Shown here one piece after another: positions 371 through 25,448 of a stretch of DNA of 64,000 nucleotides. A program made the translations under genes and the position numbers. Location: positions 91,560-155,559 of the IMG/VR virus record IMGVR_UViG_3300010396_000002; one strand, 5' to 3'. Origin of the DNA: a virus. The notes beneath the pieces were generated by a model. The model worked only from the letters and a program-made list of their open reading frames with translations, was not told the DNA's origin and did not search any database. How positions within the stretch are numbered: the first letter of the stretch is position 1; the number at the start of each line of letters is the position of its first letter.

Positions 371-408
371 GCAAACCCCCGACGTCGCCTTGACGTGCGG
401 GGGTTTGC
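371..408 (+). repeat. Intergenic hairpin element 1
   Basis: Outer stem GCAAACCCCCG (371-381) pairs with CGGGGGTTTGC (398-408), 11 bp. Inner stem ACGTC/GACGT (382-386/392-396) closes loop GCCTT. G397 is left unpaired between the stems. AGGAGG and ATG 428 follow. This is the first and most AT-tolerant member of the family. Confidence 0.8.
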
Positions 409-427
409 CGATCGTAGGAGGCACACC

Positions 428-982
428 ATGCTCAAGTCATCCGGGATCACGGTAGAGCGTCGCGACGCGATGCGGATCGCTCCCCAGCGCGCGGAGCAAC
501 TCCGCAGCCAGCGCGCTAACGGGATGTCGAGCCGCTACGGGCACGCCCCGGTGTGCAGCAACCAGCGATGCGACGGTGAATGTCGCCTCTGCTCGGCTGA
601 CGCCGCGTCCGCTGCCCTCGTTCCGGATGACGCGGCGGACGCTCGCGCCAAGCTAGACCGCACGATCCAGCGCGCGGTCCGTCGCAACTATCGCGCGACC
701 ACGACACCGGCGGTCGTGAAGCGCACGACAGAGACCAGCGCCATCGCAGCAATGCGAGCGGGGGGACTCGCGGATCATCAGATCCGCGCCGCGCTTCTCC
801 AGCGGACCCCCGTTGAGACCGTCGTGAGGACCGCGAACGATGTCCGGCGCGACGTCAGGCGCGCCAAGATCGGCGCGCAAGCGATCCACGACGCGGCGAC
901 GTTCCGCCGCACGATGCAAGCGGACGAGCGGCGCGATCCTCGCGTCTACCTTGACGGCGACGCGGTCGTCATTCCCACGTGA
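428..982 (+). CDS. Cys-rich hypothetical protein
   Basis: 184 residues, started at ATG 428 because AGGAGG lies just upstream; an upstream in-frame extension has no such signal. Residues about 40-58 hold a Cys cluster of the form C-x3-x-C-D-G-x-C-x2-C, probably a metal-binding knuckle. The next gene carries a closely similar motif (C-G-N-G-C-C-D-G-x-C-x2-C), so the two may share an ancestral module. The remainder is Arg/Ala-rich and probably helical. I do not recognise the family. Confidence 0.75.
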   Translation: MLKSSGITVERRDAMRIAPQRAEQLRSQRANGMSSRYGHAPVCSNQRCDGECRLCSADAASAALVPDDAADARAKLDRTIQRAVRRNYRATTTPAVVKRTTETSAIAAMRAGGLADHQIRAALLQRTPVETVVRTANDVRRDVRRAKIGAQAIHDAATFRRTMQADERRDPRVYLDGDAVVIPT

Positions 983-984
983 AC

Positions 985-1025
985 GCGCATACCCCGGGAG
1001 CCGGAAGGCTTGCCGGGGTTACGCG
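985..1025 (+). repeat. Intergenic hairpin element 2
   Basis: ACCCCGG (991-997) pairs with CCGGGGT (1013-1019). Inner AGCC/GGCT closes a GGAA loop. T1011-G1012 are unpaired on the 3' side. GGAGG precedes ATG 1042. Confidence 0.85.
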
Positions 1026-1041
1026 ATCGGAGGCACACACG

Positions 1042-1221
1042 ATGATCCGCACGTTCCAAGGCGAGTATTCTGATAGTCGCACGGCACCATGCGGCAACGG
1101 ATGTTGCGACGGCGCTTGCATCATCTGCGATCCGCCGCGCCCGTGCCTCGGCTGCAACGGGAAGACGCGCGACGACTCCGGTTACTGCCGGAAGTGCCGC
1201 GAACGCAACGGCGACGAGTAG
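1042..1221 (+). CDS. Cys-rich mini-protein, zinc-knuckle-like
   Basis: 59 residues with ten cysteines arranged as CGNGCCDGACIIC, then PCLGC and CRKC, consistent with one or two zinc sites. Zinc-ribbon mini-proteins in phages often bind nucleic acid or host RNA polymerase, but nothing here proves a target. The start is the ATG 6 bases after a GGAGGCACACACG leader. The first motif matches the one in the 428-982 product. Confidence 0.75.
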   Translation: MIRTFQGEYSDSRTAPCGNGCCDGACIICDPPRPCLGCNGKTRDDSGYCRKCRERNGDE

Positions 1222-1259
1222 CGCACACCCCGGGGGACTCGGTCCTGCCGGGGCTGCGT
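1221..1259 (+). repeat. Intergenic hairpin element 3
   Basis: GCGCA (1221-1225, its first G being the last base of the upstream TAG) pairs with TGCGT (1255-1259). CCCCGG (1228-1233) pairs with CCGGGG (1248-1253). Inner GGAC/GTCC closes loop TCG. T1246-G1247 are unpaired. All three stem tiers are clearest here. Confidence 0.9.
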
Positions 1260-1276
1260 CGTTGAAAGGCGGAACC

Positions 1277-1882
1277 ATGACGGACCAAGTCACGGGCGCG
1301 GACATCGCGAAGGCCATGAGGGCAGCGGTAGCCCAAGCGAGGCTAGAGCAGCTCGCCGCGGACACCGAAGCGAAGTCAGACGCGGCGGACATCTCGCGCA
1401 AGCGGGCCCGGTCCTTCTTCGCGCGCCCCACGTCCAGCCCGAACCGCGCGCCCGTCGCACGGTCGACGGATGACGAGCACAACGCGAAGGGATACCCATA
1501 CGAGATCCCGGGTTTCGTGCTCGCCAACGATCGCGGTCTCTATCTCCCCCCTGAGGGGAGCTTCTCCCGCGAGCTTGACCGCGTGTCGCCCGAGATCGAG
1601 GCGGACATGCGAGCGAACCAGATCGAACGCGAAGCCAAGGCGGCGCAAGCTCTTGCCGCGGCAGACGCGGCGGAACGCGCGTACCAGCACGCGCTCGCGA
1701 CGGGCGCACGCAAGGTCGCGACGGCGTGGGTTCAAGCGGAGCGCGCACGGGCGCGCGCGGAGCGCGCTGTCGACGCGGCGAAGCCTCGGCCCGTGTTCCG
1801 CTTCGCCGGACCGAGCGACGCAAAACACGCCGGCCAGATCCAAGCTCAGCGCGGCATCGTCAAGCTCCGCCGCATGTTCTAG
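1277..1882 (+). CDS. Hypothetical protein, Ala-rich helical C-terminus
   Basis: 201 residues from ATG 1277, after an AAAGGCGG leader. The middle contains an aromatic/Pro patch (GYPYEIPGFVLANDRGLYLP), and residues about 110-170 are Ala/Glu/Arg-rich, probably one long helix or coiled coil. The C-terminus is basic (KLRRMF). No known domain is recognised. Confidence 0.7.
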   Translation: MTDQVTGADIAKAMRAAVAQARLEQLAADTEAKSDAADISRKRARSFFARPTSSPNRAPVARSTDDEHNAKGYPYEIPGFVLANDRGLYLPPEGSFSRELDRVSPEIEADMRANQIEREAKAAQALAAADAAERAYQHALATGARKVATAWVQAERARARAERAVDAAKPRPVFRFAGPSDAKHAGQIQAQRGIVKLRRMF

Positions 1883-1922
1883 CGCACACCCGGGGGCTTC
1901 CAAGCCGCCCGGGTTGCTGCGT
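1882..1922 (+). repeat. Intergenic hairpin element 4
   Basis: ACCCGGG (1888-1894) pairs with CCCGGGT (1908-1914). Inner GGCT/AGCC encloses TCCA. G1907 is bulged. GCGCA/TGCGT (1882-1886/1918-1922) forms the base. Confidence 0.85.
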
Positions 1923-1936
1923 GGAAGCGAGGCGCC

Positions 1937-2284
1937 ATGCGCAAGACCATCGACGTCGTACGGGACGTGATCATCGCCATCATCGAAGCCGACCGGGAGC
2001 CTGGCACGGCTCCTACCGGGTGCGCGATCTACGAAGGCGGGGCGACCATCCTGCCGGAGCGCATCCGCGGCCGCGTGCCCAGCAAGATCAGATGGACGGC
2101 GTCCCGTGGGCAGCACGCCTGGGAGGGCGCGCTGTTCACGCTCAAGGCGCTCGGCGTCGACATCGGCCAGCCGCTCAACACCGGCGACACGATCCCGGTG
2201 AGCTGCCACTGCGGGGCAACGGAGGGCCTCCGCGAAGACCCCTACGGTGGCGGCAAGGTCTGCCCCACGCACTACCAGCCGTAA
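1937..2284 (+). CDS. Hypothetical protein with C-terminal Cys/His cluster
   Basis: 115 residues. The N-terminal third is amphipathic, and the C-terminus holds CHCG...C-x2-H, a possible zinc site. The start is the ATG after GAAGCGAGGCGCC, a weak SD. Family not recognised. Confidence 0.7.
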   Translation: MRKTIDVVRDVIIAIIEADREPGTAPTGCAIYEGGATILPERIRGRVPSKIRWTASRGQHAWEGALFTLKALGVDIGQPLNTGDTIPVSCHCGATEGLREDPYGGGKVCPTHYQP

Positions 2285-2325
2285 GCGCACACCCGAGGGC
2301 CTGACGGCTGCTCGGGTCGTGCCGT
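2285..2325 (+). repeat. Intergenic hairpin element 5
   Basis: ACCCGAG (2291-2297) pairs with CTCGGGT (2311-2317), so both arms differ from the common CCCCGG/CCGGGG version in a compensatory way. Inner GCC/GGC closes a TGAC loop. Confidence 0.85.
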
Positions 2326-2341
2326 CGAAAGGACGGTCACC

Positions 2342-2515
2342 ATGTCCAAGCTCTGCGCCAGCATCGTCATCACGTGGGCCGCCGGCCTCGTCGCCGGTCT
2401 GCTCATCCGGTCCAGCGCGGGACAGCACGGGCTGCTCCCGAGCCTCGCGATCGTGGTCGTGTCTGCCGGGGCAGCGGGCGCCATCTTCGCGCTCACTGCG
2501 GGGAGCCGGTCATGA
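2342..2515 (+). CDS. Small two-span membrane protein
   Basis: 57 residues with two hydrophobic segments, at about residues 5-22 and 31-52, joined by a short polar loop with one Arg. The shape is holin-like, but no lysis gene is adjacent, so inner-membrane localisation is all that can be claimed. SD GAAAGGACGG precedes ATG 2342. The stop overlaps the next start (ATGA), indicating translational coupling. Confidence 0.65.
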   Translation: MSKLCASIVITWAAGLVAGLLIRSSAGQHGLLPSLAIVVVSAGAAGAIFALTAGSRS

Positions 2516-2814
2516 GAAAGGACCGCGTCATCAAGTTCTCCACCGGCGGCTATGTGACCGAGAAAGACGGGCGCCGCCGTGCGAAGTTCACCAGGAAGGA
2601 GGCACACGATGAAGCTCGCAAGATCCGTGCAGGCGATGGCCGGTGCACCGTCGTGAGGCTCGTCCCGCCGGTGATCAACGTGACGATCAAGCTCCAGATC
2701 CGCGGGATGGCCGGTACCGTCTGGGACATGGTCGAGGACGCGCTCGATGCTGGCGACGTTCAGGAAATCTTCAACAGCTCGGAGACGCTGGTCCTCTCCG
2801 CCGTATCCGAGTAG
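2512..2814 (+). CDS. Hypothetical protein
   Basis: 100 residues, coupled to the membrane protein gene by ATGA. The N-terminal half is basic (RKDRVIKFSTGGYVTEKDGR) and the C-terminal half acidic and hydrophobic. No recognisable motif. Confidence 0.7.
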   Translation: MRKDRVIKFSTGGYVTEKDGRRRAKFTRKEAHDEARKIRAGDGRCTVVRLVPPVINVTIKLQIRGMAGTVWDMVEDALDAGDVQEIFNSSETLVLSAVSE

Positions 2815-2855
2815 CGCATACCCCGGAGGCTTCTTGCCTGCCGGGGCTGTGCCGT
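2814..2855 (+). repeat. Intergenic hairpin element 6
   Basis: CCCCGG (2821-2826) pairs with CCGGGG (2841-2846). Inner AGGC/GCCT encloses TTCTT. G2840 is bulged. The GCGCA start shares its G with the upstream TAG. Confidence 0.85.
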
Positions 2856-2872
2856 CAGGAGGGCTATCCGCC

Positions 2873-3214
2873 ATGAATGACAAGATCCCCGCCGTGTTCG
2901 AGAACCTGACCGCAGCGTCCCCGCTGGATGACCTCTGTGTCGCGGCCTATATCGCCGCCGCAAACGCTGCCCGCGAGGACATGAAGCCGCAGCGTGCGGG
3001 AGCGTGCCTCGCCTCGGACGATGCGACGATCGCTTACTTGCGCGCCCCATCGACGCGCTCCTGCCTGGAGGACTGGCTCCAAGCGTACCGGCACGACGAG
3101 GGCGTCCTGACCGCGCTGTCCGACGATGCACGCACCCAGGTGCTCGCCTCGGCATGGCGCGCATACGAGGCAACCGTGATGCAAGCGCGCGACGCTGCGC
3201 GGGCCGGTACCTGA
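2873..3214 (+). CDS. Hypothetical helical protein
   Basis: 113 residues, Ala-rich with two Cys, probably all-helical. ATG 2873 follows CAGGAGGGCTATCCGCC. No family recognised. Confidence 0.7.
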   Translation: MNDKIPAVFENLTAASPLDDLCVAAYIAAANAAREDMKPQRAGACLASDDATIAYLRAPSTRSCLEDWLQAYRHDEGVLTALSDDARTQVLASAWRAYEATVMQARDAARAGT

Positions 3215-3253
3215 GCGCACGCCCCCGACCGGAAACGGTGCGGGGGTCGGCGC
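3215..3253 (+). repeat. Intergenic hairpin element 7
   Basis: CCCCCG (3222-3227) pairs with CGGGGG (3241-3246). Inner ACCG/CGGT closes a GAAA tetraloop of the GNRA class (3232-3235). G3240 is bulged. Confidence 0.88.
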
Positions 3254-3272
3254 ATTGAAGGAGGCCGACACC

Positions 3273-4136
3273 ATGATCTGTCCTGGCTACGACGACTGGA
3301 AGACGACCGAGGACCACATCGAGGTGCCCGCAGGCTCCTCCCATGCGGCGCCCGCTGGCCGCTACCAGGGCCCCGACGCGGCCGGGGATCGGCCGTGCAT
3401 CGACACGACGGGCATGACCGAGTCGGAGATCGCCAGGTACGCGGCCGCCGGCGCCGATGCCGTGGCGGAAGCCGAGGCGCTCCGAGAGGACCACGTCGAC
3501 GGCGGCGAGCCGTTCGACCCGAAGGCGTTCGCCGCGGCGCTCGAGTTGGAGCTCGACCGGAACGCGGATCCGAACTGCACGCTCTGCAAGGGCCGCGGCG
3601 TCGTCGTTCAGAAGCACGACGGGCCCGGTGGCGAGCGGCTCACGTGCGACTGCGTGCTGTCCCCTGAGCGCGTCGCCGTCATCGCTGCGGCCGAGGCTGC
3701 CGGCCACGAGAAGATCGCGCCGCGCGCGCGGGACGCCACGGCGGAGCAGCTCGCTGACTGGTGCGCCTCGCGCCATGCCGCCGCCGAGGTCGAAGGCCAG
3801 CGCGAGCTAGGCGCGGCGATCCGAGCCTACTGGGCGAGCGAGCCGGCGATCCTCGCGGTGCGCCGGCACCCATGGGCCGACATCTTCATCGCAAACCACG
3901 ACGGGGCCACGTGCGGGACCTGCCTCCCGTCGGGGATCGACCTGAGCGATCCAACGGTCGAGGTCTTCCAGGTTGGCAGCGACGGCTGGACGGGCCCGGT
4001 CACCTGCACGAAATGCGGCAGACCGATCGACGTCGTCGTCGACGGGATGAAGGCCGTCGCCGATGGCAAGGACGACGAGTCCGTGCTGGCGGAGCTCAAG
4101 CCCGTCGTCGAGCGGCTCAACGAGAAGAAGGGCTGA
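3273..4136 (+). CDS. Zinc-motif hypothetical protein
   Basis: 287 residues from ATG 3273 after AAGGAGG. Two Cys clusters are visible: CTLCKGRG...CDC at residues about 110-130, resembling a DnaJ-type knuckle, and a later C-x2-C / C-x2-C pair (CGTC, CTKC). The region between is Ala/Glu-rich. A nucleic-acid or protein interaction role is possible; the function is unknown. Confidence 0.7.
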   Translation: MICPGYDDWKTTEDHIEVPAGSSHAAPAGRYQGPDAAGDRPCIDTTGMTESEIARYAAAGADAVAEAEALREDHVDGGEPFDPKAFAAALELELDRNADPNCTLCKGRGVVVQKHDGPGGERLTCDCVLSPERVAVIAAAEAAGHEKIAPRARDATAEQLADWCASRHAAAEVEGQRELGAAIRAYWASEPAILAVRRHPWADIFIANHDGATCGTCLPSGIDLSDPTVEVFQVGSDGWTGPVTCTKCGRPIDVVVDGMKAVADGKDDESVLAELKPVVERLNEKKG

Positions 4137-4155
4137 CGGTCGAGCGACCCATGTA

Positions 4156-4197
4156 GCGCAGAGCCCCGGACCGGCAAGGTCGCGGGGCTCGACGCCG
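4156..4197 (+). repeat. Intergenic hairpin element 8
   Basis: GAGCCCCG (4161-4168) pairs with CGGGGCTC (4183-4190). Inner GACC/GGTC encloses GGCAA. G4182 is bulged. A 19-base spacer separates it from the upstream TGA, which is unusual for the family. Confidence 0.88.
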
Positions 4198-4475
4198 TGG
4201 AGGTGTTCGATGCGAACCGTCTTCAATACGCCGTTCCCATCACCGACGACATCGAGATCGAGATGCACAAGGGGGCCACGCCGCTCTCCTTCCAGGAGCA
4301 GCACGGGGCCGCATGTGTCTGGGCCCTCGTCGATACGGAAGCTCCGAAGACGATGCGCCGCTTCCGGCTCGCCGGCACAGGGCATACGCTCGACGCCGAC
4401 GACGGCACGTACGTTGGGACCGCGCAGTTCCGCGGCGGCTCGCTCGTCTTCCACCTGTTCGTCTACCCCGAGTAG
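4197..4475 (+). CDS. Hypothetical protein, start frame inconsistent
   Basis: The frame with gene-like codon use starts at GTG 4197 (or GTG 4203) and gives about 92 residues ending at the TAG that opens element 9. However, the expected SD-ATG signal (GGAGG then ATG 4210) is out of this frame by one base. Either a base is missing just after 4210 or a non-ATG start is used. The product looks like a compact beta-rich domain of unknown function. Confidence 0.55.
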   Translation: MEVFDANRLQYAVPITDDIEIEMHKGATPLSFQEQHGAACVWALVDTEAPKTMRRFRLAGTGHTLDADDGTYVGTAQFRGGSLVFHLFVYPE

Positions 4476-4518
4476 CGCACGCCCCGGGCCTCGACAAAGG
4501 CGCCGGGGCTCAGTGCGT
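4475..4518 (+). repeat. Intergenic hairpin element 9
   Basis: GCCCCGG (4481-4487) pairs with CCGGGGC (4503-4509). Inner GCCT/AGGC encloses CGACAA. G4502 is bulged. Basal GCGCA/TGCGT (4475-4479/4514-4518) is intact. Confidence 0.9.
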
Positions 4519-4526
4519 GGAGGTGC

Positions 4527-6800
4527 ATGATGCGCAACCACGCGCTCCTCGCGCTCGCGAGGTACGCCAAGACTTTCGGCAAGGGCTCCCCATTCGATGC
4601 CCTTGGCTGCGTCCTCGTCGACGGCCACATGGCCGAGGCGACGGACCTCTACACCAGAGTACGCATTGAGCTGCCGGAGCCCGTCATCGACGGGGCGCCG
4701 GCCATGCTCGAGGCGGGCTGGCTCGTCGACGTCGTGAAGCTGTCGGGCAAGGTCCCGATCAAGCTGACCAGCGTCGATCCGACCGAGATTCCCTGCGTCC
4801 ATGAACCGGCCAAGCTCCAAGCGGATGCCGACGGCGCGATCCTCAAGATCGTAGCGAAGACGCCCGCCGCAGAGTTTCCGCGCCCGCTCCGGCCGTTCGA
4901 CATGCCGGCGCGCGCGGACCTCGAGCCTGGCGACTTCGCCAAGGGCGGGCCCGTCGCAGCGGTGCTGCGGGCCGTGTCCACGGACACGGCCAGGGCAGCC
5001 CAGAGCGCGATGCTCTTCGACCGCGACAGGGCGGTTGGTACCGACGGGCACATGCTCTGCGTGCGCAAGTTCGCGCGCGCGCTGCCATTCCCTGACGTGC
5101 TCGTGCCCCGCGCCGCGGTCGAGATCCTGCTCGCCATGTGTGCAAAGTTCGCTCCGCTGGAGCTCAGGGTCGAGGTGACCGGAACCGATGCCAGGTTCAC
5201 CGGCACCTGCGCCGGGGGCCTTCGCTGGTCCGTCACCACGAAACTGGCGGATGCGAAGTTCCCGTCCTACCAGCAAGCGCTCGTCGAGCCCGACACGTTC
5301 ACAACGGTCGACGTCGGCGAGCTGCGCGGCATCGTGCGTGGGCTCGGTGACTGGCGCGTCGCCATCTTCCCCGACGGGGGTGTCGTCGCCTTTGAGGGGC
5401 TGAACGGCAGCGGTGACGCCGCGATGTTCTTCCCCGCGGACCAGCCACCGACGGAGCCGCCTCTGGTCGTGCTAGGCAAGGGCACGCTCGGCGCCGTGCT
5501 CGACATGCTCCCCAAGGAGGGCACGATCGAGATCGGCACCAGCGCAGCGGAGAAGGCGGCGGACAAGGACCGCCTGACGCCGGCGCTGGTCGATGGCTTC
5601 GTCCTGATGCCGATGAAGTACCCCGAGCTGCCTACAGCGGTCGCGGCTGCCGTCAAGGCTGCCTATGCGAAGCCCGCGCAGCCCACCGACTGGAAGCAGT
5701 GGGATGGCTTCAGGGTGTCGGACGGTCCGACGTTCCCACGAGAGGTCAACGTCGACGGGAAAGAGACACTCCCAGATCGTTGGCTTCCCTTCCACCTCGG
5801 AGCACCGGCCGAGGACGACTGCAAGCTCACCGGGCGGCTCGACCCGCCCACGTTCACGAAGCCCCTGTGGGGGCAGGAGGAGACCATGCCCGATCCGAAG
5901 AAGGCGGCCCAAGCCGCCGCCGCAGCCCAGCAACCCAAGCAGGACAAGCCCACCAAGGCGCCAAAGGCCAAGGCCAAGGCCGCCGCAGCGGCCGCGCAGT
6001 CGCCGCAGACGGAGGCCATCCGCCAGACCGGCGCGCCCACGTTCGCGGTTGGCGCCACGGTCCGCCGCGGCCAGGAGGTCGGCACCGTCAAGGAGCTGAT
6101 CGAGCCCTCGCCCGGCTGGCATCGGGCGAGAGTCCAGTGGCCGGGGTCGGAGCAGTTCGTCGACATCGACCAGCTCACCGTGGAGCCGGTGGCCTCGAGC
6201 GCGCAGCCCGTGCCCCCGCCCCCGGCGAGCGGTCCGCGGGTCGTCCAGGGCTCGACCAGGCGCGTCTTCACGGTCGGCCAGATGGGGCTGCCGTCGCTGG
6301 ACAAGCTGGCGGAGCTCGCGCTCTGGCTCGGCGTCTCCGCGGTGCTCGACACCAGGACCCAGCCCCCGAAGAAGGGGCCATGGACCACGGCGGGCGTCGA
6401 GGGCGCGACCTTGACGGGGGCCGGCTGCCCCGTCGTGCGGAGCAACGTCGCCACCCCGATCGCCGACCAGATCGCGGCGCTCCCCGCGGGGTCGGTGTTG
6501 CTCCTCGGGATGGACTGGGCTCCGGGCGACAACGCGGCCTTCATGGCCCTCGCCGAGGGCACCGACTTCGAGGTGCTCCACGTCTGCGTCCTCGACAAGG
6601 CCGAGCTGACGAAGCCGCTCGCCGCGCACGAGGAGCCCTCGGCGAGGTGGGACGAGGTGCAGTGCATCGACCACGGCCAACTCGTCGACTTCATCGCCGG
6701 CAAGATCACCGATTACGGCGCCTACAACGTCAGCGCCGAGTTCGTGGACCCGCTGCCGCCCCGGAGGCCGGTCCTCGCGCTCGCGACGGGCACGGCGTGA
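4527..6800 (+). CDS. DnaN-like sliding clamp fused to KOW-like and DUF488-like domains
   Basis: 757 residues. Residues 1-375 match the three-domain bacterial beta clamp in length and landmarks: an ATDL-type strand near residue 38, a DGHML segment typical of domain II, a KFPSYQQ segment, and a final VLMPM motif near residue 368. A Lys/Ala/Pro-rich linker (about 450-500) leads to a small SH3/KOW-like segment (505-555) and a C-terminal DUF488-like domain (580-750) starting VFTVGQMGLPSLDKL. Clamps encircle DNA and tether polymerases and other enzymes. An in-frame ATG at 5886 with a strong SD may produce the C-terminal half separately. Two neighbouring modification proteins carry clamp-binding-like motifs. 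Confidence 0.78.
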   Translation: MMRNHALLALARYAKTFGKGSPFDALGCVLVDGHMAEATDLYTRVRIELPEPVIDGAPAMLEAGWLVDVVKLSGKVPIKLTSVDPTEIPCVHEPAKLQADADGAILKIVAKTPAAEFPRPLRPFDMPARADLEPGDFAKGGPVAAVLRAVSTDTARAAQSAMLFDRDRAVGTDGHMLCVRKFARALPFPDVLVPRAAVEILLAMCAKFAPLELRVEVTGTDARFTGTCAGGLRWSVTTKLADAKFPSYQQALVEPDTFTTVDVGELRGIVRGLGDWRVAIFPDGGVVAFEGLNGSGDAAMFFPADQPPTEPPLVVLGKGTLGAVLDMLPKEGTIEIGTSAAEKAADKDRLTPALVDGFVLMPMKYPELPTAVAAAVKAAYAKPAQPTDWKQWDGFRVSDGPTFPREVNVDGKETLPDRWLPFHLGAPAEDDCKLTGRLDPPTFTKPLWGQEETMPDPKKAAQAAAAAQQPKQDKPTKAPKAKAKAAAAAAQSPQTEAIRQTGAPTFAVGATVRRGQEVGTVKELIEPSPGWHRARVQWPGSEQFVDIDQLTVEPVASSAQPVPPPPASGPRVVQGSTRRVFTVGQMGLPSLDKLAELALWLGVSAVLDTRTQPPKKGPWTTAGVEGATLTGAGCPVVRSNVATPIADQIAALPAGSVLLLGMDWAPGDNAAFMALAEGTDFEVLHVCVLDKAELTKPLAAHEEPSARWDEVQCIDHGQLVDFIAGKITDYGAYNVSAEFVDPLPPRRPVLALATGTA
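5861..5888 (+). promoter_or_regulatory. Internal hairpin, SD and in-frame ATG
   Basis: Inside the clamp gene, GCCCC (5861-5865) pairs with GGGGC (5870-5874). AGGAGG (5875-5880) and ATG 5886 follow, in the clamp's own frame. Translation from here would give a 304-residue protein with the linker, KOW-like and DUF488-like parts. The arrangement resembles a reduced version of the intergenic elements. Confidence 0.55.
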
Positions 6801-6840
6801 TCCTGCTCCACCGTCCTCGTGACGATGCCTTAGACTGAAC

Positions 6841-6882
6841 GCGCAGGGCCCGGGGCTACCAAGCCGCCGGGCTCGGCGCGTT
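6841..6882 (+). repeat. Intergenic hairpin element 10
   Basis: GCCCGG (6848-6853) pairs with CCGGGC (6867-6872). Inner GGCT/AGCC encloses ACCA. G6866 is bulged. GTTGGAGG follows. Confidence 0.88.
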
Positions 6883-6892
6883 GGAGGACCCG

Positions 6893-7237
6893 ATGAACGA
6901 GTTCGAGAGCAAACGAGAGGCCGCCTACCGCGCCGAGATCGAACGGGCCAGGTCCAACGGTCGCTACTACATCGGCTGGCGCTCCGCGAGCTACTGCTCC
7001 GACGCATCGTGGGCCGTAGCCGCGACGGAGACCGACGCCCGTGCGTTCGCCTCGCTAGGCGCACCATTCGCGGTCGGTGTCTTGTCGGTCGACGACACGC
7101 CGCACGGGCGCGAGTTCGGACGCATCGGAGCATGCGGAGGCAACGCGCCTCCCGATGCACTGCGGGACGTGATCCTGCGCGGTGCGGAGATCGCCAACGT
7201 CGGGACGATCCCCGGCACCAGGATCGTTGCACACTGA
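6893..7237 (+). CDS. Hypothetical protein
   Basis: 114 residues from ATG 6893 (GGAGG 8 bases upstream). Contains an aromatic stretch (YYIGWRSASY) near residue 25 and an even mixture of beta- and helix-forming residues. No domain recognised. Confidence 0.7.
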   Translation: MNEFESKREAAYRAEIERARSNGRYYIGWRSASYCSDASWAVAATETDARAFASLGAPFAVGVLSVDDTPHGREFGRIGACGGNAPPDALRDVILRGAEIANVGTIPGTRIVAH

Positions 7238-7287
7238 GCGCAGAGCCCCGGCTCCTCCTGCAACGGAGGGGTGCGGGGCTCTGGCGT
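7238..7287 (+). repeat. Intergenic hairpin element 11
   Basis: AGAGCCCCG (7242-7250) pairs with CGGGGCTCT (7274-7282), 9 bp. Inner CCTCC/GGAGG encloses TGCAAC. The longer inner stem makes this one of the larger members. Confidence 0.88.
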
Positions 7288-7298
7288 TGGAGGACACG

Positions 7299-8192
7299 AT
7301 GAAGCAGCGCTTCCGCTCAAAGGCGTTCAAGGACGAGTCGATGGCGCTGATCGAGCGCTGCGACAACATCATCACCGGCTACCAGGCGCAGGGCCTACGG
7401 CTCACGCTCAGGCAGCTCTACTACCAGTGCGTCGCCGGCGGTGACGGCCTGGACCCGATCCCCAACACGGAGCAGAGCTACAAGAACCTCGGCTCGCTCG
7501 TGAGCGATGCCAGGCTCGCCGGGCTGCTCGACTGGGACGCGATCGAGGACCGCGGTCGCCGGCCGCGCCGGCAGTCGCAGTGGGACAACATCTCCGACCT
7601 CGTCGACAGCGCCGTGCGCGCCTACCGGCTTCCCCGATGGGAAGGGCAGCGCTGCTACGTCGAGCTCTGGGTGGAGAAGGAGGCCCTCGCCGGTGTCCTC
7701 GAACCCCTCGCGTCCGAGTTCCACGTGACGCTGATGGTCAACAAGGGCTACTCGTCGTCGAGCGCGATGTTCGACAGCGCGCAGCGCTTCAAGGAAGCGC
7801 AGGACAACGACAAGCAGCTCCTGCTCTTCTACCTCGGGGACCACGACCCGAGCGGCGAGGACATGGTCCGCGACATCCGCGAGCGCATGCGGATGTTCGA
7901 GGTCGACTACCTCACCGTGACGAAGCTGGCCCTCACCTGGGACCAGATCCAGAAGTACAACCCGCCGCCCAACCCGGCCAAGCTCTCCGACTCCCGGGCA
8001 AAGGCGTACATCGCGAAGCACGGCACCTCATCGTGGGAGGTGGACGCGCTCCCGCCCAACGTGCTCCAGCAGATCATCCGCGACGCCTTCAAGGCCGAGA
8101 TCGATGAGAGCCTGGTGAAGGCGATCAAGGCCAAGGAGGCGCGCGACAAGCAACGGCTCCGCGAGGCCGCAGCGAAGATCATGCAAACGTGA
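7299..8192 (+). CDS. Spo11/TopoVI-A-like CAP-Toprim protein
   Basis: 297 residues. The N-terminal part (about 30-90) has the winged-helix CAP signature of topoisomerase VI-A/Spo11, with RQLYY (38-42) where the catalytic Tyr sits. A Toprim domain follows: WVEKEAL with Glu126/128, and GDHDPSG with Asp181 and Asp183 as the metal-binding acidic residues. Family members cleave or relax duplex DNA through a 5'-phosphotyrosine link. No B (ATPase) subunit gene is visible, so it could be one of the stand-alone Mini-A proteins known from mobile elements. That assignment is inference; the fold assignment is stronger. Confidence 0.7.
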   Translation: MKQRFRSKAFKDESMALIERCDNIITGYQAQGLRLTLRQLYYQCVAGGDGLDPIPNTEQSYKNLGSLVSDARLAGLLDWDAIEDRGRRPRRQSQWDNISDLVDSAVRAYRLPRWEGQRCYVELWVEKEALAGVLEPLASEFHVTLMVNKGYSSSSAMFDSAQRFKEAQDNDKQLLLFYLGDHDPSGEDMVRDIRERMRMFEVDYLTVTKLALTWDQIQKYNPPPNPAKLSDSRAKAYIAKHGTSSWEVDALPPNVLQQIIRDAFKAEIDESLVKAIKAKEARDKQRLREAAAKIMQT

Positions 8193-8193
8193 C

Positions 8194-8236
8194 GCGCAGA
8201 CCCGGGGCCCGAGAAGGGGTGCCCGGGTCGAGCCGT
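8194..8236 (+). repeat. Intergenic hairpin element 12
   Basis: GACCCGGG (8199-8206) pairs with CCCGGGTC (8222-8229). Inner CCC/GGG encloses GAGAA. About 40 extra bases, including a GCGC-rich repeat, separate it from GAGGAGG and ATG 8277, unlike other members. Confidence 0.82.
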
Positions 8237-8276
8237 GGAAGCCGCGCAGGACAGCAGGCGCGGCGAGGAGGACACG

Positions 8277-8846
8277 ATGTCGAACGTCAGGAGCGAGTTC
8301 TACACGATCAAGGACAAGGACGGGCGCGACGTGTGCCGCGCATGTGGGCGCGAGCACCCGCACAGGTACGAGCACGTCATGTTCACGAGAGGCGCCGTGC
8401 GCTGTGTCGCGGTACCGCTCGACGACCACAACCCGGGCCCCGACTTCGTTCGCGGCAAGATCAAGTCGGTCGCGGACACGTGGGAGCCCGAATGGCTCCG
8501 GGAGATCCAGAACACCGGAGCCGTCGTCCAGTATATTGGAGGGTGGGCCTACGAGGCCGCCAATGGTGCCCTCCACCTGCCCGAGGACGTCCACCCCATG
8601 ACGCGCTCGCGCGCCAGGGCAGCCCGCAAGGGCTTCGGCTACGCGCCCAATCACGAGCCGGTCGGCCAGCACACGGCGCTCAGGGTCGAGCGCGATGAGG
8701 ATGGCTGGTTCTCGAAGGGCGACCCCGACCGAGGCCAGCGGCTCAACGCCAGGGTATCGCTGCCGGCCGACCTGCCGGTATACGACACCGAAGGCGACGC
8801 CATCGCGGATGCGAAGCGCCGCTGGACCAACAAGCCGAAGGGATGA
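8277..8846 (+). CDS. Hypothetical protein with CxxC
   Basis: 189 residues from ATG 8277 after GAGGAGG. CRACGREHPHRYEH near residues 20-33 may bind zinc. The rest is hydrophilic with no recognised domain. Confidence 0.7.
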   Translation: MSNVRSEFYTIKDKDGRDVCRACGREHPHRYEHVMFTRGAVRCVAVPLDDHNPGPDFVRGKIKSVADTWEPEWLREIQNTGAVVQYIGGWAYEAANGALHLPEDVHPMTRSRARAARKGFGYAPNHEPVGQHTALRVERDEDGWFSKGDPDRGQRLNARVSLPADLPVYDTEGDAIADAKRRWTNKPKG

Positions 8847-8848
8847 AC

Positions 8849-8897
8849 GCGCAGACCCCCGGCTCCTCCATCACGGAGGGGCGCGGGGGTCGAGCCG
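8849..8897 (+). repeat. Intergenic hairpin element 13 (orphan)
   Basis: GACCCCCG (8854-8861) pairs with CGGGGGTC (8884-8891). Inner CTCC/GGAG encloses ATCAC. GAGCCGTG follows, but no SD or ATG, so this copy serves no intact gene. Confidence 0.82.
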
Positions 8898-8949
8898 TGC
8901 CGCCGGCTACTCGGGGCGCACCATCGCCGAGGTCAAGGCGCGCAAGTAG
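8898..8949 (+). pseudogene. Truncated gene remnant after orphan element
   Basis: Directly after element 13, a frame without a start codon reads AAGYSGRTIAEVKARK and stops at 8949. It looks like the last 16 codons of a deleted cassette gene, since the residues are protein-like and the TAG precedes the next element. Confidence 0.45.
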
Positions 8950-8959
8950 CACCAGCCCA

Positions 8960-9005
8960 GCGCACGCCCCCGGGAGCACCTCTGCTCTGCGGGGGCTGTG
9001 CCGTC
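8960..9005 (+). repeat. Intergenic hairpin element 14
   Basis: GCCCCCG (8966-8972) pairs with CGGGGGC (8990-8996). Inner GAGCA/TGCTC encloses CCTC. T8988-G8989 are unpaired. Confidence 0.87.
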
Positions 9006-9017
9006 AGGAGAACCGAC

Positions 9018-9236
9018 ATGAGCGACAAGCAATGGCACGACGACCGCATCCCGATGGAGTACCGGATCCGCGCTGCGCGCGAGCACAATGCGCGGATGGA
9101 CGAGCTGATCGCGGCGAGCGAGGAAGAGGCGCGCCGCCTCGATGGTCTTGGAGACCACGTGCGCGCGGAGCAGTGCCGCCGAGACGCGGCCGAGTTCGCA
9201 GCGCAAAAGACCGACTTCGGAGCGGACGCCGCATGA
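9018..9236 (+). CDS. Small charged helical protein
   Basis: 72 residues, almost entirely charged and Ala-rich, and probably a single long helix or coiled coil (residues 15-65). ATG 9018 follows CAGGAGAACCGAC. Confidence 0.7.
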   Translation: MSDKQWHDDRIPMEYRIRAAREHNARMDELIAASEEEARRLDGLGDHVRAEQCRRDAAEFAAQKTDFGADAA

Positions 9237-9239
9237 TCA

Positions 9240-9284
9240 GCGCAGAGCCGGGGGCCCTTCGGGGTTGCCCGGCTCGCGGTCGTG
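9240..9284 (+). repeat. Intergenic hairpin element 15
   Basis: GAGCCGGG (9245-9252) pairs with CCCGGCTC (9268-9275). Inner CCC/GGG closes a TTCG loop (9258-9261), the extra-stable cUUCGg tetraloop. The outer stem differs from the consensus by paired changes. Confidence 0.88.
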
Positions 9285-9294
9285 GAGGGACACC

Positions 9295-9486
9295 ATGTCC
9301 ACGAAGAAGAAGGACCCGCCGCCCAAGGCGATCTGCCGCTGCAAGGTCGCCCACGCGATCACCCAGCGCGAGCGAGAAGAGGCGATGCTGGCTCTCCAGT
9401 GGGCCCGCCAGGACAAGGACGCCAAGGCGATCAGCATCGCGCTCGCCAGGCTAGAGCCGTGCCCGTGCGTACCGAAGGAGACCTGA
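9295..9486 (+). CDS. Small Cys-containing protein
   Basis: 63 residues from ATG 9295 (GGAGG upstream). Four cysteines in two C-x-C pairs (CRC, CPC) flank a helix, suggesting a metal-linked hairpin. Unknown function. Confidence 0.7.
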   Translation: MSTKKKDPPPKAICRCKVAHAITQREREEAMLALQWARQDKDAKAISIALARLEPCPCVPKET

Positions 9487-9489
9487 GCC

Positions 9490-10437: not shown

Positions 10438-10460
10438 CGCGGGCAGAGGAGATCGATCCC

Positions 10461-10724: not shown

Positions 10725-10808
10725 CCGCTCGTGGATTCGGTCGAGCCTGCCCCTTTCCACGAGGAGCAGGCTCCGCCGGGCATCGAGCCCACGGGAAGGA
10801 GATCCCCC

Positions 10809-11717: not shown

Positions 11718-11730
11718 CAGGGGGGGACTG

Positions 11731-17893: not shown

Positions 17894-17940
17894 GCGCACG
17901 CCCCGGGGCTCTTGCAAGAGGAGCTGCCGGGGCATGCCAT
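17894..17940 (+). repeat. Intergenic hairpin element 19
   Basis: GCCCCGG (17900-17906) pairs with CCGGGGC (17927-17933). The inner arm CTCTT/AAGAG has only GC between it, so the real loop must be wider. Extra GAGCTG bases lie between the stems. Confidence 0.82.
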
Positions 17941-17951
17941 TGGAGGATTCA

Positions 17952-18679: not shown

Positions 18680-18724
18680 GCGCACGGCTCGGGCTCCCAT
18701 CGGGGGGCGCCGAGCTTGTGCACG
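18680..18724 (+). repeat. Intergenic hairpin element 20 (divergent, pairing kept)
   Basis: GCTCGG (18687-18692) pairs with CCGAGC (18710-18715). Inner GCTCCC/GGGGGC encloses a 4-base loop. G18709 is bulged. Both outer arms differ from CCCCGG/CCGGGG by matching changes, which is strong evidence for selection on pairing. Confidence 0.87.
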
Positions 18725-18735
18725 TGGAGGAGAAC

Positions 18736-19104: not shown

Positions 19105-19146
19105 GCGCATCCCCGAGGGCCGCAGGGCCGCTCGGGTTGAGCCCGT
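19105..19146 (+). repeat. Intergenic hairpin element 21
   Basis: CCCGAG (19112-19117) pairs with CTCGGG (19131-19136). Inner GGCC/GGCC encloses GCAG. G19130 is bulged. CCCGTGGAGG follows. Confidence 0.87.
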
Positions 19147-19155
19147 GGAGGTACC

Positions 19156-19413
19156 ATGCCGGACACCACGGACGAGGACATCATCCGCATCACCGTCGAC
19201 GTCGAGAGGTGCGGCCGCTCCACCAGGACCAAGGCGTCGAGTTGGGCCTACGTCGACGCGCCGCCCAACGTGCGCCGCCACATCGCCCCCGAGACGTTCG
19301 TCGAAGCCGTCGCCGAGCTCGTTGTCAACGGCTACACCGTCACCGTCGAGCCGAAGATCGAGGACATCTCGCTCCTCGACTGGTACGGCGGCCAGCTTCC
19401 CACCGGAACGTGA
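19156..19413 (+). CDS. Hypothetical protein
   Basis: 85 residues with a beta-alpha-beta pattern and a C-terminal Leu/Asp/Trp segment (ISLLDWYGG). No family recognised. Confidence 0.7.
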   Translation: MPDTTDEDIIRITVDVERCGRSTRTKASSWAYVDAPPNVRRHIAPETFVEAVAELVVNGYTVTVEPKIEDISLLDWYGGQLPTGT

Positions 19414-20751: not shown

Positions 20752-21000
20752 ATGGCTGACACGCAAGCAGGTCGCAAGTTCAAGCCCGGCGACCGGGTCG
20801 ACTGGACCCGCATCTACAAGGTGAGCAACGTCACCGAGCGCTGGCGACGCGTCTTCGGAGACGGCCCGTACACCGTCAAAAGTGTTGAGGTCGATGCGAC
20901 CGACAACCCGCTGATCACCATCAAGCCCAACAAGAGGCCGCCGCCTGGCGAAGACCTTACATTCACCGAGTCGTGGTTCGACAAGGTCGGTGCCACGTGA
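20752..21000 (+). CDS. Small SH3/KOW-like hypothetical protein
   Basis: 82 residues. The start FKPGDRVDWTRIYKVS resembles the opening strands of SH3/KOW barrels. Overlaps the next gene by GTGA. Confidence 0.65.
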   Translation: MADTQAGRKFKPGDRVDWTRIYKVSNVTERWRRVFGDGPYTVKSVEVDATDNPLITIKPNKRPPPGEDLTFTESWFDKVGAT

Positions 21001-21473
21001 GCGCGCCCAAGCCAATCCCTGCCGCGCTGGAGGACGTTGGCGCCGTCGTTCGCCGGTGCTGGCCCGGCTGTGCCGAGGTGCAAGGCGTCGACCCGGTCAA
21101 GGTGCGCGTCGAGGTCGTGCCCCACGTCGAGCGGCGACAGCACGGTCACCGCCGTGGATGGGAACTCGTCATCGCTCGCGATCCGGGACACGGCGGCACC
21201 CTGCGGGCCATCGAGAACGCGCGGGCGATCGAGGAGCTTGCTCGGAGCTTCGAGGACGCCGGCTTCGACGTCCTCCGCCACGAGGACGGCCGCCGTGTCG
21301 TGCTCGGCTGGACGCGTAGCTCCGAACCGCACAGGAAGGGGATGCGGGCGCGCCTCGTCGAGCTTGGGCCGTGGCACCCGGACCGGGACCGTCGCCGAGC
21401 TGAGCTGCTCGCACAGCGCAACCCGCGCGCAATCGCCGAGATGACCGGCCACGCCGCTCCGACCAGTGAGTAG
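20997..21473 (+). CDS. Hypothetical basic protein
   Basis: 158 residues from GTG 20997. Mixed alpha/beta with many Arg/His (RRQHGHRRGWELVIARDPG). Directly upstream of the DpdA-like gene. Not recognised. Confidence 0.66.
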   Translation: MSAPKPIPAALEDVGAVVRRCWPGCAEVQGVDPVKVRVEVVPHVERRQHGHRRGWELVIARDPGHGGTLRAIENARAIEELARSFEDAGFDVLRHEDGRRVVLGWTRSSEPHRKGMRARLVELGPWHPDRDRRRAELLAQRNPRAIAEMTGHAAPTSE

Positions 21474-21476
21474 GCC

Positions 21477-22250
21477 ATGCGCGCCGGGAGCTTCTTCCTC
21501 GGCACGCACATGCCGGGCTGGCTCGCCGATCCACGCTTCGCTGAGGTCCCGCTCTTCGTCTCCCGCCGGAGGCTCGTCAAGCGGCGCACACTCCCCCGAG
21601 CCAAAGGCCGCTGGGCCTGCGACTCGGGCGGGTTCATGGAGCTGTCCCTCTTCGGCGGATGGACCGTCGGGCCTCGTCAGTACGCCGGCGAGATCCGCAG
21701 GTTCCGCGACGAGATCGGCGGCATGGCGTGGGCCGCGCCGAACGACTGGATGTGCGAGCCCGGCATCCTCCGTTCGACGGGCCTCGACGTCGTCGAGCAC
21801 CAGCGGCGCACCGTCGCCAACCTGCTGGAGCTCCGGTCCATCGCCCCGGACCTCCCCTTCGTGCCGGTCCTTCAGGGCTGGCAGGTGGACGACTATCTAC
21901 GATGCGTCGATGCGTACGACCGCGCCGGCGTGAACCTCCGCAAGGAGCCCGTCGTCGGCGTTGGCACGGTCTGCCGGCGCCAGAACACGACGGAGGGAGC
22001 GCGAATTGTCCGCAAGCTCGCCGGCCTTGGGCTCAAGCTCCACGGCTTCGGCTTCAAGGTGACGGGGCTCAGGGCGTGCGGAGACGCGCTCGTCAGCGCC
22101 GACTCGTTGGCCTGGTCCTTCCGGGCTCGCAGATCGGATCCGCTTCCAGGTCACTCCCACAAGTCGTGCGCGAACTGCCCCGACTTCGCGCTAGCATGGC
22201 GCGGGGAGATCGAAGCGGGGCTCGTACCCAGGCAACTCGCCCTGTTCTAG
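21477..22250 (+). CDS. DpdA/TGT-like DNA base-exchange protein (DUF7221-type)
   Basis: 257 residues resembling the phage tRNA-guanine-transglycosylase-like family related to DpdA, which inserts 7-deazaguanine bases into DNA. Key segments are ACDSGGF (47-53, the TGT catalytic region), AAPNDWMCEP (86-95), VPVLQGW (129-135), GVGTVCRR (161-168) and LHGFGFK (188-194), plus a late HKSCANC that may bind zinc. It ends in RQLALF, which fits the sliding-clamp-binding consensus QL-x-LF. No queuosine or preQ0 synthesis genes (FolE, QueD, QueE, QueC) are evident here, so substrate would have to come from the host or from genes outside the window. Confidence 0.75.
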   Translation: MRAGSFFLGTHMPGWLADPRFAEVPLFVSRRRLVKRRTLPRAKGRWACDSGGFMELSLFGGWTVGPRQYAGEIRRFRDEIGGMAWAAPNDWMCEPGILRSTGLDVVEHQRRTVANLLELRSIAPDLPFVPVLQGWQVDDYLRCVDAYDRAGVNLRKEPVVGVGTVCRRQNTTEGARIVRKLAGLGLKLHGFGFKVTGLRACGDALVSADSLAWSFRARRSDPLPGHSHKSCANCPDFALAWRGEIEAGLVPRQLALF

Positions 22251-23487: not shown

Positions 23488-23531
23488 GCGCACAGCCCGG
23501 ACCTCGACAAGAGGTGCCGGGCTTCGTGCGT
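23488..23531 (+). repeat. Intergenic hairpin element 22
   Basis: AGCCCGG (23494-23500) pairs with CCGGGCT (23517-23523). Inner ACCTC/GAGGT encloses GACAA. G23516 is bulged. GCGCA/TGCGT forms the base. A near-ideal copy. Confidence 0.9.
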
Positions 23532-23545
23532 CGAGGAGGCAGACC

Positions 23546-24118
23546 ATGCCGAAGACCAAGCAGAAGCCCGTCAGCGAAGCCACGATCGCCAAGGTCGCGA
23601 AGGAGACTGGCAAGCCGTTCAATGACGGCGGCGCATACATGAGCAGCCGCTTCAAGGACTGGACGGGGTGCGTCCGGTACCTGTTCACGCTCACCAGCGA
23701 CCCGAAGCGCGTCGAGGACTTCCTGCGCTCCAAGAACATGCGCTGGTGCAGCGACAACCGCGCGAGGAGCGGGAAGGCGACCGTCGCCGACCTCAAGCGA
23801 TACATCGCGCACTGGCTGTCGAAGCCCGGGTCGATGGGCTCCGGGATCGTCGAGATCCTCGGGATCGATGTGCCCAATTCGCCGATCCCGGATGCCAAGG
23901 CGGTGACGCTCGAGGCCGCCATGAACGCCGGCAGGCTGAAGGCCTGGGACGCCTTCCTCCAGATCGCCGAGACGGCGCGCGTCATCCAGGAGACGGCCAC
24001 CCGGAGCCCGACGGATCCGGCAGCGCTTGCCGAGGTGTCGCGGCTGGTGTCGATCCTGCGCATGACGACGCTCGTCTCCGAGCCCACCAAGCCGAAGCGC
24101 CCGGCGAGACGCCGGTGA
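23546..24118 (+). CDS. Hypothetical protein
   Basis: 190 residues from ATG 23546 after GAGGAGG. Mostly helical, with a basic N-terminus and C-terminus (KPKRPARRR). No domain recognised. It overlaps the next GTG. Confidence 0.7.
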   Translation: MPKTKQKPVSEATIAKVAKETGKPFNDGGAYMSSRFKDWTGCVRYLFTLTSDPKRVEDFLRSKNMRWCSDNRARSGKATVADLKRYIAHWLSKPGSMGSGIVEILGIDVPNSPIPDAKAVTLEAAMNAGRLKAWDAFLQIAETARVIQETATRSPTDPAALAEVSRLVSILRMTTLVSEPTKPKRPARRR

Positions 24119-24264
24119 GCGTCTTCCTCACGAAGCCCAGGCGCCGCGTCCAGCCCCATCCGCGCCGGAAGTGCGCGTGGTGCTCGAGGACCGTGGCGCA
24201 CGGGCCCCGCAACGATCCCTACCCCCACGACTGCATAGGCGTCTATCACTGGAGGCGACCATGA
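24115..24264 (+). CDS. Mini zinc-like basic protein
   Basis: 49 residues from GTG 24115 (GTGA overlap). KCAWCSR-x(15)-HDC gives a C-x2-C...H-x-C arrangement. Very basic. Overlaps the next ATG. Confidence 0.6.
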   Translation: MSVFLTKPRRRVQPHPRRKCAWCSRTVAHGPRNDPYPHDCIGVYHWRRP

Positions 24265-24452
24265 AGAAGAGGATCCGCATCGAGGCCGACGCACTCGGCC
24301 GCATCCGTTTGCGCGACCATGCCACCGGCCAGATCCTGGAGAGCGAACTCCGGACGCCTGACCTCTCGGCGCTCGTCGGGCATCGGATCGAGACCGGCAC
24401 CGTCTGCAACGACGGCTCGATCGTGTTGGACCTCGAGCACGAGCCGTCATGA
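24261..24452 (+). CDS. Small hypothetical protein
   Basis: 63 residues from ATG 24261 (GGAGGCGACC upstream). Beta-rich, no motif. ATGA overlap with the PP-loop gene that follows. Confidence 0.65.
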   Translation: MKKRIRIEADALGRIRLRDHATGQILESELRTPDLSALVGHRIETGTVCNDGSIVLDLEHEPS

Positions 24453-25363
24453 ACCTCCACCAGTGGCTCCGGATGCCCGAGGCTTGGCGCCCTCCGATCG
24501 TCGTGTCGGACGGTATGGGCGTAGATTCGCAGGGCGTGCTGCTCCTACTCAAGCGCCTGGGGATCAGACCCAAGGCGGTGCTCCACGCCGACACAGGGAA
24601 CGAGAAGGAGGTCACCATCCAGGCCAGGGAATGGCGTCGGCGCTGGCTCGCCGAGAACGGCTTCCCGGAGCTGACGATGGTCCGCCGACCCCCTGGCGTT
24701 TCCAAGAGGACCGGGCTCCCCTACGCGACGATCGCCGAGAAGGCCATCGCCTACGAGATTTATCCAGGGATCACCTTCGACAAGCACTCGTGCTCGAAGG
24801 AATGGAAGATCGACCCCATGGATGACTGGGTCCTCGCCCAGCCTTGGGCGAAGACTGCCATCGCGCGGGGCCAGGGCGTATGGCGCGTCATCGGCTACGA
24901 CGCCGGCCCCAAGGATGCGCGCCGTGGTCACGAGATCCACGATGATCACCGCTTCCGGTTCATCTATCCGCTACGCGACGTGAAGTGGGACCGCGGGCGC
25001 ATCCAGTACGAGCTCTCTGTCGAGGGGATCCGCCAGTTCCCGAAGAGCGCCTGCAAGATTTGCAAGGCGAACAAGCCGTGGGAGATCGCCCAGATCGTCG
25101 CGCACGATCCGAAGGGGGCCGACGAGATCATCGCCGTCGAGGCCGCCGGCGCCGCACGTGGCCGCACCGTCGAGGGGCTATGGGGGCGCACCGTGAAGGG
25201 ACAGCGCGGCGCCGTGCCGCATCCCGGGCGGATGACGGACTTCATCAACCAGCTCCGTAGCGACCCCGCAGAGTTGAAGCGGCACCTCGCCATGGCCCCC
25301 CGGTTCGAGGTGAACGGCAGCCTGTGTGACAGCGATGGTGGCGACTGTCACACAGACGCTTGA
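24449..25363 (+). CDS. PP-loop (PAPS-reductase-like) protein
   Basis: 304 residues. The PP-loop variant SDGMGVDS (20-27) lies at the N-terminus, followed by LHADTGNE (49-56), as in phage PAPS-reductase-family proteins. Cys pairs appear at CSKEW and CKICKANKPWE. The fold binds ATP and activates a substrate by adenylation. This is the second of three such genes in the window. It is coupled to the upstream gene (ATGA). The 3' end of the gene contains an inverted repeat (see 25322). Confidence 0.72.
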   Translation: MNLHQWLRMPEAWRPPIVVSDGMGVDSQGVLLLLKRLGIRPKAVLHADTGNEKEVTIQAREWRRRWLAENGFPELTMVRRPPGVSKRTGLPYATIAEKAIAYEIYPGITFDKHSCSKEWKIDPMDDWVLAQPWAKTAIARGQGVWRVIGYDAGPKDARRGHEIHDDHRFRFIYPLRDVKWDRGRIQYELSVEGIRQFPKSACKICKANKPWEIAQIVAHDPKGADEIIAVEAAGAARGRTVEGLWGRTVKGQRGAVPHPGRMTDFINQLRSDPAELKRHLAMAPRFEVNGSLCDSDGGDCHTDA

Positions 25364-25387
25364 CCAGCCCGCTCGACTGTCACACAC
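25322..25387 (+). repeat. Triple CTGTCACACA-type repeat
   Basis: CTGTGTGACAG (25322-25332) is the exact inverse complement of CTGTCACACAG (25345-25355), and a third copy CTGTCACACAC lies at 25377-25387. The first two fall in the last codons of the PP-loop gene. This could be an operator array, or a hairpin in RNA with a 12-base loop. Confidence 0.6.
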
Positions 25388-25406
25388 TCGGTTCGGACGA
25401 CACGGC

Positions 25407-25448
25407 GCGCAGCCCCGGAGCACCCACGCTCGCGGGGCTCGTCGCGTC
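25407..25448 (+). repeat. Intergenic hairpin element 23 (last copy)
   Basis: AGCCCCG (25411-25417) pairs with CGGGGCT (25433-25439). Inner GAGC/GCTC encloses ACCCAC. G25432 is bulged. It stands 40 bases after the upstream stop. I see no further member to the right. Confidence 0.87.

Follow-up and report, generated by a model that had tools for sequence, protein, structure and literature searches.

On the long transcript of phage T7, hairpins that separate a stop codon from the ribosome binding site that follows are cut by the host ribonuclease III (RNase III), which cleaves between T7 genes. The coat-protein hairpin of phage MS2 places a stem, a single bulged purine and an upper stem-loop by a start site, and the repetitive extragenic palindrome (REP) elements of REP-associated tyrosine transposase (RAYT) systems are imperfect hairpins present in many intergenic copies, each stem preceded by a short conserved tag. 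In cluster K mycobacteriophages, start-associated sequences (SAS, a conserved 13-bp sequence) and extended start-associated sequences (ESAS, sequence-conserved 17-bp inverted repeats with a variable spacer) recur just upstream of certain genes' start codons, in one orientation and over part of the genome (PMC3203893), and in phage T4 one phage factor, RegA or RegB, acts on numerous early mRNAs at their translation initiation regions (PMC3014915). Here we describe a family of RNA hairpins, each about 45 nt long, varying in sequence between copies and constant in shape, that recurs 23 times in a 64,000-nt window (bases 91560–155559) of the 155,559-base virus record IMGVR_UViG_3300010396_000002. 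The phage under study, hereafter G000, ends in 123-base identical terminal repeats, so that its genome is probably complete, and its tail sheath, portal, major head protein, terminase and DnaB-type helicase mark it as a tailed phage whose tail is contractile.

The 23 copies, established from minimum free energy (MFE) folds, alignment and a covariance model (R2), lie at positions 369–25450 of the window, all on the plus strand, and comprise 22 canonical copies and one deviant (Table 1). A descriptor consisting of GCGC[A/G], an outer stem, an inner stem and a single bulged base on the 3′ side gave 24 matches (about 22 distinct) on the plus strand of the first 26 kb, against 0–4 in 20 first-order Markov shuffles, and by identical criteria the remaining 91 kb of G000 hold no copy. 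Minus-strand matches to the model in the first 25.4 kb are solely mirror images of plus-strand copies. MFE folds return the stem, the 1-nt 3′ bulge and the inner stem-loop in nearly every window copy. The original prediction, made from this stretch alone, had listed at least 23 intergenic two-tier hairpins, all of which are present, the excess over shuffles and the folds agreeing; the plan it gave (GCGCA, outer stem, inner stem-loop, bulged G, GCGT) describes 22 of them and fails for the deviant copy.

In a typical copy, GCGCA is followed by 0–3 bases, an outer stem strand (mostly CCCCGG or CCCCCG) and an inner stem of 4–8 bp; after a loop of 3–6 bases come the returning inner strand, one G, the outer 3′ strand, 1–5 bases, GCSGU and then the Shine–Dalgarno (SD) sequence. 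Across three phages that carry the element (see below), G occupies the bulge in 66 of 69 copies, and the pair directly above it is purine–pyrimidine (G–C, G–U or A–U) in 68 of 69, the second pair above the bulge being unrestricted (G–C, C–G, A–U or G–U). To the two tiers we add a third, lower helix, in which the flanks GCGC and GCGU pair: GCGCA and the 3′ flank can form an unbroken run of at least four pairs in 48 of 69 copies, compared with a mean of 25 and a maximum of 35 when the flank is shuffled, and variants in one of the other phages (G001) retain this helix by other sequences, as judged by eye in, among others, the gaps at 152968 and 86345. A variable internal loop sits between the lower helix and the GC-rich outer stem, and the short loop that caps the inner stem is free in sequence. 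The predicted folds are very stable, at −25 to −40 kcal/mol, with recurrent UUCG and GNRA tetraloops.

The copies are a structured RNA element, a conclusion we hold with near certainty. When the 23 window copies were aligned with MAFFT, without fitting to structure, 89.8% of the stem cells were paired versus 69.8% after shuffling, and 51 double-sided changes were counted versus 18, with all slid registers failing. An 82-row alignment spanning the three phages, which was fitted to the model and so leans towards it, is 92.2% paired and holds 210 double-sided changes versus 64 shuffled, pairing dropping from 92% to 41–53% in slid registers. Both for the 23 unfitted copies and for sets of 70–82 copies, the covariation counts exceed those of all 500 column shuffles and of all slid registers; column shuffles ignore the relatedness of the copies, though the inner stems are mutually very different. 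Considering that G–U and U–G pairs (45) in the stems far outnumber A–C and C–A mismatches (9), the sense-strand RNA is the selected form. The check proposed with the original prediction, covariation, thus yields an excess, scored here by column-shuffle counts in place of R-scape.

Scanning 2.9 million viral contigs for the DNA pattern led to two further many-copy phages: IMGVR_UViG_3300035695_000001 (G001; 162,811 bases with 127-base identical ends) and IMGVR_UViG_3300042090_001664 (G002; 82,332 bases). Covariance model R2 counts 23 sense copies in G000, 37 in G001 and 15 in G002. Given the identity of their tail sheaths to that of G000 (57% for G001, 53% for G002) and the 79 G000 proteins with reciprocal best matches in one or both of the others, the three phages are related. 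The hairpin stands before both members of the ortholog pairs G000_148/G001_228, G000_150/G001_229 and G000_157/G001_250; in the first the outer stem is retained and the inner stem altered on both sides, and in the second the inner stems differ wholly. Some other orthologs bear a hairpin in only one phage. Structural alignment across relatives, on which the original prediction had staked itself, therefore succeeds, in part before orthologs with compensated inner stems.

Among the sequences scanned, only these three related phages carry the motif. Two hairpin pattern scans of the viral contigs returned about 90 stretches, of which only G001 and G002 carry more than isolated matches, and a stricter third pattern matched none; the lone 34.7-bit match in IMGVR_UViG_3300005436_000501 was set aside as probably an artefact of pattern selection. 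Scans of viral contigs for terminase and sheath recovered the same two relatives and one weak, partial terminase match on a 20-kb contig. Loci of other phages and of bacteria, 490 kb in all, gave no covariance-model match, and INPHARED holds no DNA-level relative of window 1–25000, nor a match to the tail sheath or to the PHAX-domain protein discussed below. The proposal that the motif lacks a described counterpart held up against Rfam 15, where no family reaches the gathering score and a search of window 1–26000 relaxed to E = 3 likewise gave none. It is well supported that the hairpins constitute a new family of RNA motifs, with looser precedents among repeated phage mRNA signals at start sites.

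The placement of the copies is exact. The hairpin begins −1 to +5 nt from the preceding stop codon for 16 of the 23 copies in the window; the three phages together give 48 of 75, or 48 of the 68 that have a predicted stop codon at most 150 nt upstream, and most copies end 6–16 nt before a start codon (genes being called with our own codon-usage caller). The succession of stop codon, hairpin and SD that had been claimed for every copy applies to most, failing at copy 1 (non-coding DNA before it), copy 13 (another copy after it) and copy 12 (a distant SD). In each of the three genomes the copies are confined to one stretch of co-directional genes, that is, one operon. Gaps of 35–100 nt inside this operon usually hold a hairpin and nearly all same-strand gaps elsewhere lack one; where genes overlap, the junction has none. 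Region 300–13400 contains no sigma-70-like promoter and two T-tract terminator-like sites, neither at a hairpin copy, versus 5.5 expected. The lack of promoters and of excess terminators there places the hairpins inside a long transcript and supports one long transcript with hairpins as internal signals. An identity as intrinsic terminators was rejected, the hairpins lacking the combination of GC-rich stem and T-run.

What the hairpins do we infer from this anatomy and placement. The fixed bulged G, its purine–pyrimidine neighbour, the lower helix and the flanks, constant amid variable stems, look like recognition features. Predicted SD accessibility is 0.464 in the native sequence and 0.463 with the hairpin shuffled (p = 0.43), which makes passive exposure of the SD unlikely and favors a trans-acting reader; that the hairpin acts through such a reader we consider somewhat probable. 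An RNA-binding factor would dock on these fixed parts (the bulged G and the pairs beside it, the lower helix, the flank) and, once bound, may act on the adjacent SD or cut the mRNA there, so that translation of all hairpin-bearing cistrons would be set together, as an RNA regulon. Our overall reading, to which we assign a probability of roughly 0.5, is that of one family of cis-acting mRNA elements in a polycistronic operon, read in trans and controlling translation or cutting cistron by cistron. Among the roles suggested with the original prediction, RNA–protein recognition or translation control fits best, and RNase processing is possible.

Processing is indeed the strongest rival. A host RNase III-type enzyme or a phage endoribonuclease may cut each hairpin, releasing separate mRNAs with protected ends, and the position of the hairpins exactly between the cistrons of a long, promoter-less transcript suits this, as does the general resemblance of two stacked helices, a one-sided bulge and an internal loop to known RNase III signals. 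However, none of the three phages encodes an RNase III, so that the host enzyme would be needed, and RNase III does not depend on a fixed bulged G, closing pair or GCGCA flank, whereas these hairpins retain all three; we regard processing as a less probable alternative. A purely passive translational element without a reader, serving as a cistron spacer, a means to keep the SD unpaired, a standby site or a block to reinitiation, would explain the flush stop–hairpin–SD arrangement and the missing hairpins at overlapping genes. It is nonetheless unlikely, more so than processing, considering the unchanged predicted SD accessibility and that such an element would need neither the fixed bulged G and closing pair nor restriction to one operon.

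The stability of the folds and their UUCG and GNRA tetraloops would likewise be expected if the hairpins blocked 3′ exonucleases at cistron ends, in the manner of T4 intergenic hairpins or REP-type elements, yet the fixed bulge, the flanks and the proximity to the SD would go unexplained and the copies precede genes within one transcript rather than standing at transcript ends, making a role as mRNA stability elements improbable. Least probable is an element acting at the level of DNA, whether operator, promoter hairpin or mobile palindrome of the REP or IS200 type. Every copy does contain an inverted repeat, and G002 encodes one IS200-type Y1 transposase, but the excess of G–U over A–C, the unconserved stem sequence, the single orientation relative to genes and the exact placement all speak against this, and G000 and G001, the two genomes with terminal repeats, lack a Y1 transposase (PF01797).

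If the hairpins are read in trans, the leading candidate reader would be G000's own PHAX-domain protein. The PHAX domain is best known from eukaryotic small nuclear RNA (snRNA) export. Each of the three phages encodes a protein matching the PHAX RNA-binding domain family PF10258 (G000_144, E = 1.1e-10; G001_205, 1e-5; G002_81, 5.7e-9), with scores of 43.7, 38.5 and 27.9 bits among them at a family cut-off of 25, and all three proteins also match solved PHAX domains. G000_144 and its counterparts are the one recognised RNA binder among the scanned proteins common to the three phages, a scan that covered part of the protein set and may miss other RNA-binding proteins. PF10258 was not found in 12 hairpin-less phages and 14 control genomes, and 12 phage contigs carrying relatives of the protein at 7299–8192 have neither hairpins nor PHAX. 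An AlphaFold model of the PHAX protein, made on three sequences, was of low confidence (mean pLDDT 44) and was not used.

Several points weigh against the reading of the hairpins by this protein, or against the strength of the case as a whole. Two covariance alignments, A2 and A10, were made by fitting to the model. Because the three phages are relatives, the co-occurrence of PHAX and hairpin amounts to about one observation; the PHAX gene lies outside the hairpin operon; and G016, an unrelated 141.6-kb phage, has a PHAX domain yet no such hairpins. Eight PHAX-bearing Chloroflexota genomes showed no hairpins among the 150 of many candidates scored per genome. The published eukaryotic PHAX work that we consulted shows no recognition of hairpins or bulges by this domain, and the RNA-binding domain is not visible in the structure of the export complex. 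Given PHAX domains without a hairpin link in G016 and Chloroflexota, the PHAX connection is a lead rather than a result. It is thus doubtful that the trans-acting reader is the PHAX protein, and slightly more doubtful still that the phages possess a complete RNA regulon in which a PHAX-type protein reads hairpins at dozens of cistrons and thereby switches or processes the whole operon. The literature that we searched holds no report of PHAX domains from phages or bacteria. Phage PHAX domains are listed in Table 1, and some of the Chloroflexota PHAX proteins have an apparent N-terminal cold-shock-type domain.

Other features of these genomes deserve mention. In all three phages, divergent genes are followed by a non-coding region of 1.3–1.7 kb and then by the first hairpin (window 1–368 plus upstream sequence, genome 90603–91928; G001 147166–148911; G002, reversed, 20804–22229). 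The region is mostly unconserved, except for a 59-base block with 86% identity between G000 and G001, and could hold the operon promoter, an origin or a structured RNA. In G000 the 10-mer TGTGTGACAG recurs 14 times where about 0.14 would be expected, partly as inverted pairs in gaps, at window 25323–25386 and 11 other sites over the genome (L004, L005, L006); G001 instead has 45 occurrences of TGCTAGACA (0.46 expected), and G002 has neither. These words look like phage-specific operator or promoter elements. Four proteins common to these phages, at L006:9293–10213, L006:3354–3962, L007:1119–1607 and window 27052–27717, have matches to DUF5131, a PAPS-reductase domain, an SLOG-type family and, weakly, DUF488. 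The IS200-type Y1 transposase gene lies at G002 23865–24227 on the minus strand and is present only in that contig.

Table 1. Positions of the hairpin copies in the window and of phage PHAX domains (ORF, open reading frame)
Feature	Position	Strand	Remarks
Copy 1	369–415	+	Opens operon; before ORF 428–982; preceded by non-coding DNA, no gene; G001 ortholog copy at 148911
Copy 2	985–1030	+	Before ORF 1042–1221
Copy 3	1221–1265	+	Overlaps stop codon TAG; before ORF 1277–1882; G001 ortholog copy at 149534
Copy 4	1882–1925	+	Before ORF 1937–2284
Copy 5	2285–2328	+	Before ORF 2342–2515
Copy 6	2814–2858	+	Before ORF 2873–3214
Copy 7	3215–3258	+	Before ORF 3273–4136
Copy 8	4156–4200	+	
Copy 9	4475–4520	+	Before ORF 4527–6800; ortholog G001_250 likewise with hairpin
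Copy 10	6841–6884	+	Before ORF 6893–7237
Copy 11	7238–7291	+	8-bp inner stem; before ORF 7299–8192
Copy 12	8194–8239	+	SD about 35 nt downstream
Copy 13	8849–8901	+	Next element is copy 14, no gene
Copy 14	8960–9007	+	Before ORF 9018–9236
Copy 15	9240–9285	+	Before ORF at 9295
Copy 16	11673–11720	+	Deviant: ACGCGTT replaces GCGCA, long perfect outer helix, different bulge; 29.6 bits
Copy 17	12573–12619	+	
Copy 18	13261–13304	+	Before ORF at 13316
Copy 19	17894–17944	+	
Copy 20	18680–18727	+	
Copy 21	19105–19148	+	Before ORF 19156–19413
Copy 22	23488–23534	+	Before ORF 23546–24118
Copy 23	25405–25450	+	Final copy
G000_144	L007:8379–9134	−	PF10258 match
PHAX domain	L089:14575–15348		PF10258
PHAX domain	L095:1529–2221		PF10258
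PHAX domain	L113:10001–10174		Motif match

The copies provide natural multi-copy data on what a reader would tolerate, with the bulged G and the purine–pyrimidine closing pair fixed and the stems and loop free. A trans-acting reader, if there is one, would represent a new viral way to control a whole operon post-transcriptionally and would offer a portable RNA–protein pair for tools; the occurrence of PHAX in these phages and in Chloroflexota further raises the question of the domain's role outside eukaryotes.

Among described systems, the cluster K SAS and ESAS, named in the original prediction as the nearest idea, are an apt comparison, similar in arrangement (position upstream of starts, orientation, regional restriction) and unrelated in sequence: they are sequence-conserved, whereas the hairpin stems differ, covary and keep a fixed bulged G. 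Identity with SAS was rejected, since the 13-bp core GGGATAGGAGCCC, allowing up to three mismatches, is not above chance in the window (17 matches versus 24.7 expected). The T7 RNase III sites share the placement of the hairpins; they are longer, few per genome and without a fixed bulge or flank, and a phage RNase III was not found here. REP/RAYT elements are likewise many intergenic, imperfect hairpins with a short tag, but they are sequence-conserved, occur in both orientations and are tied to a Y1 transposase; identity with them was rejected, as the inner stems of the phage hairpins all differ, only one orientation occurs and PF01797 is found in G002 alone, as a single copy. T4 RegA and RegB are analogues of the proposed reader in how they work, although RegA sites lack structure and are rich in A+U, RegB cleaves GGAG and neither uses a shared hairpin. 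MS2-type operator hairpins come close in their stem, bulged purine and start-site placement; a genome has one such site, its loop conserved, as opposed to 15–37 sites with free loops and a bulge on the 3′ side. Translational operators in phages are mostly single sites, whereas here a covarying structure is repeated before up to 37 cistrons.

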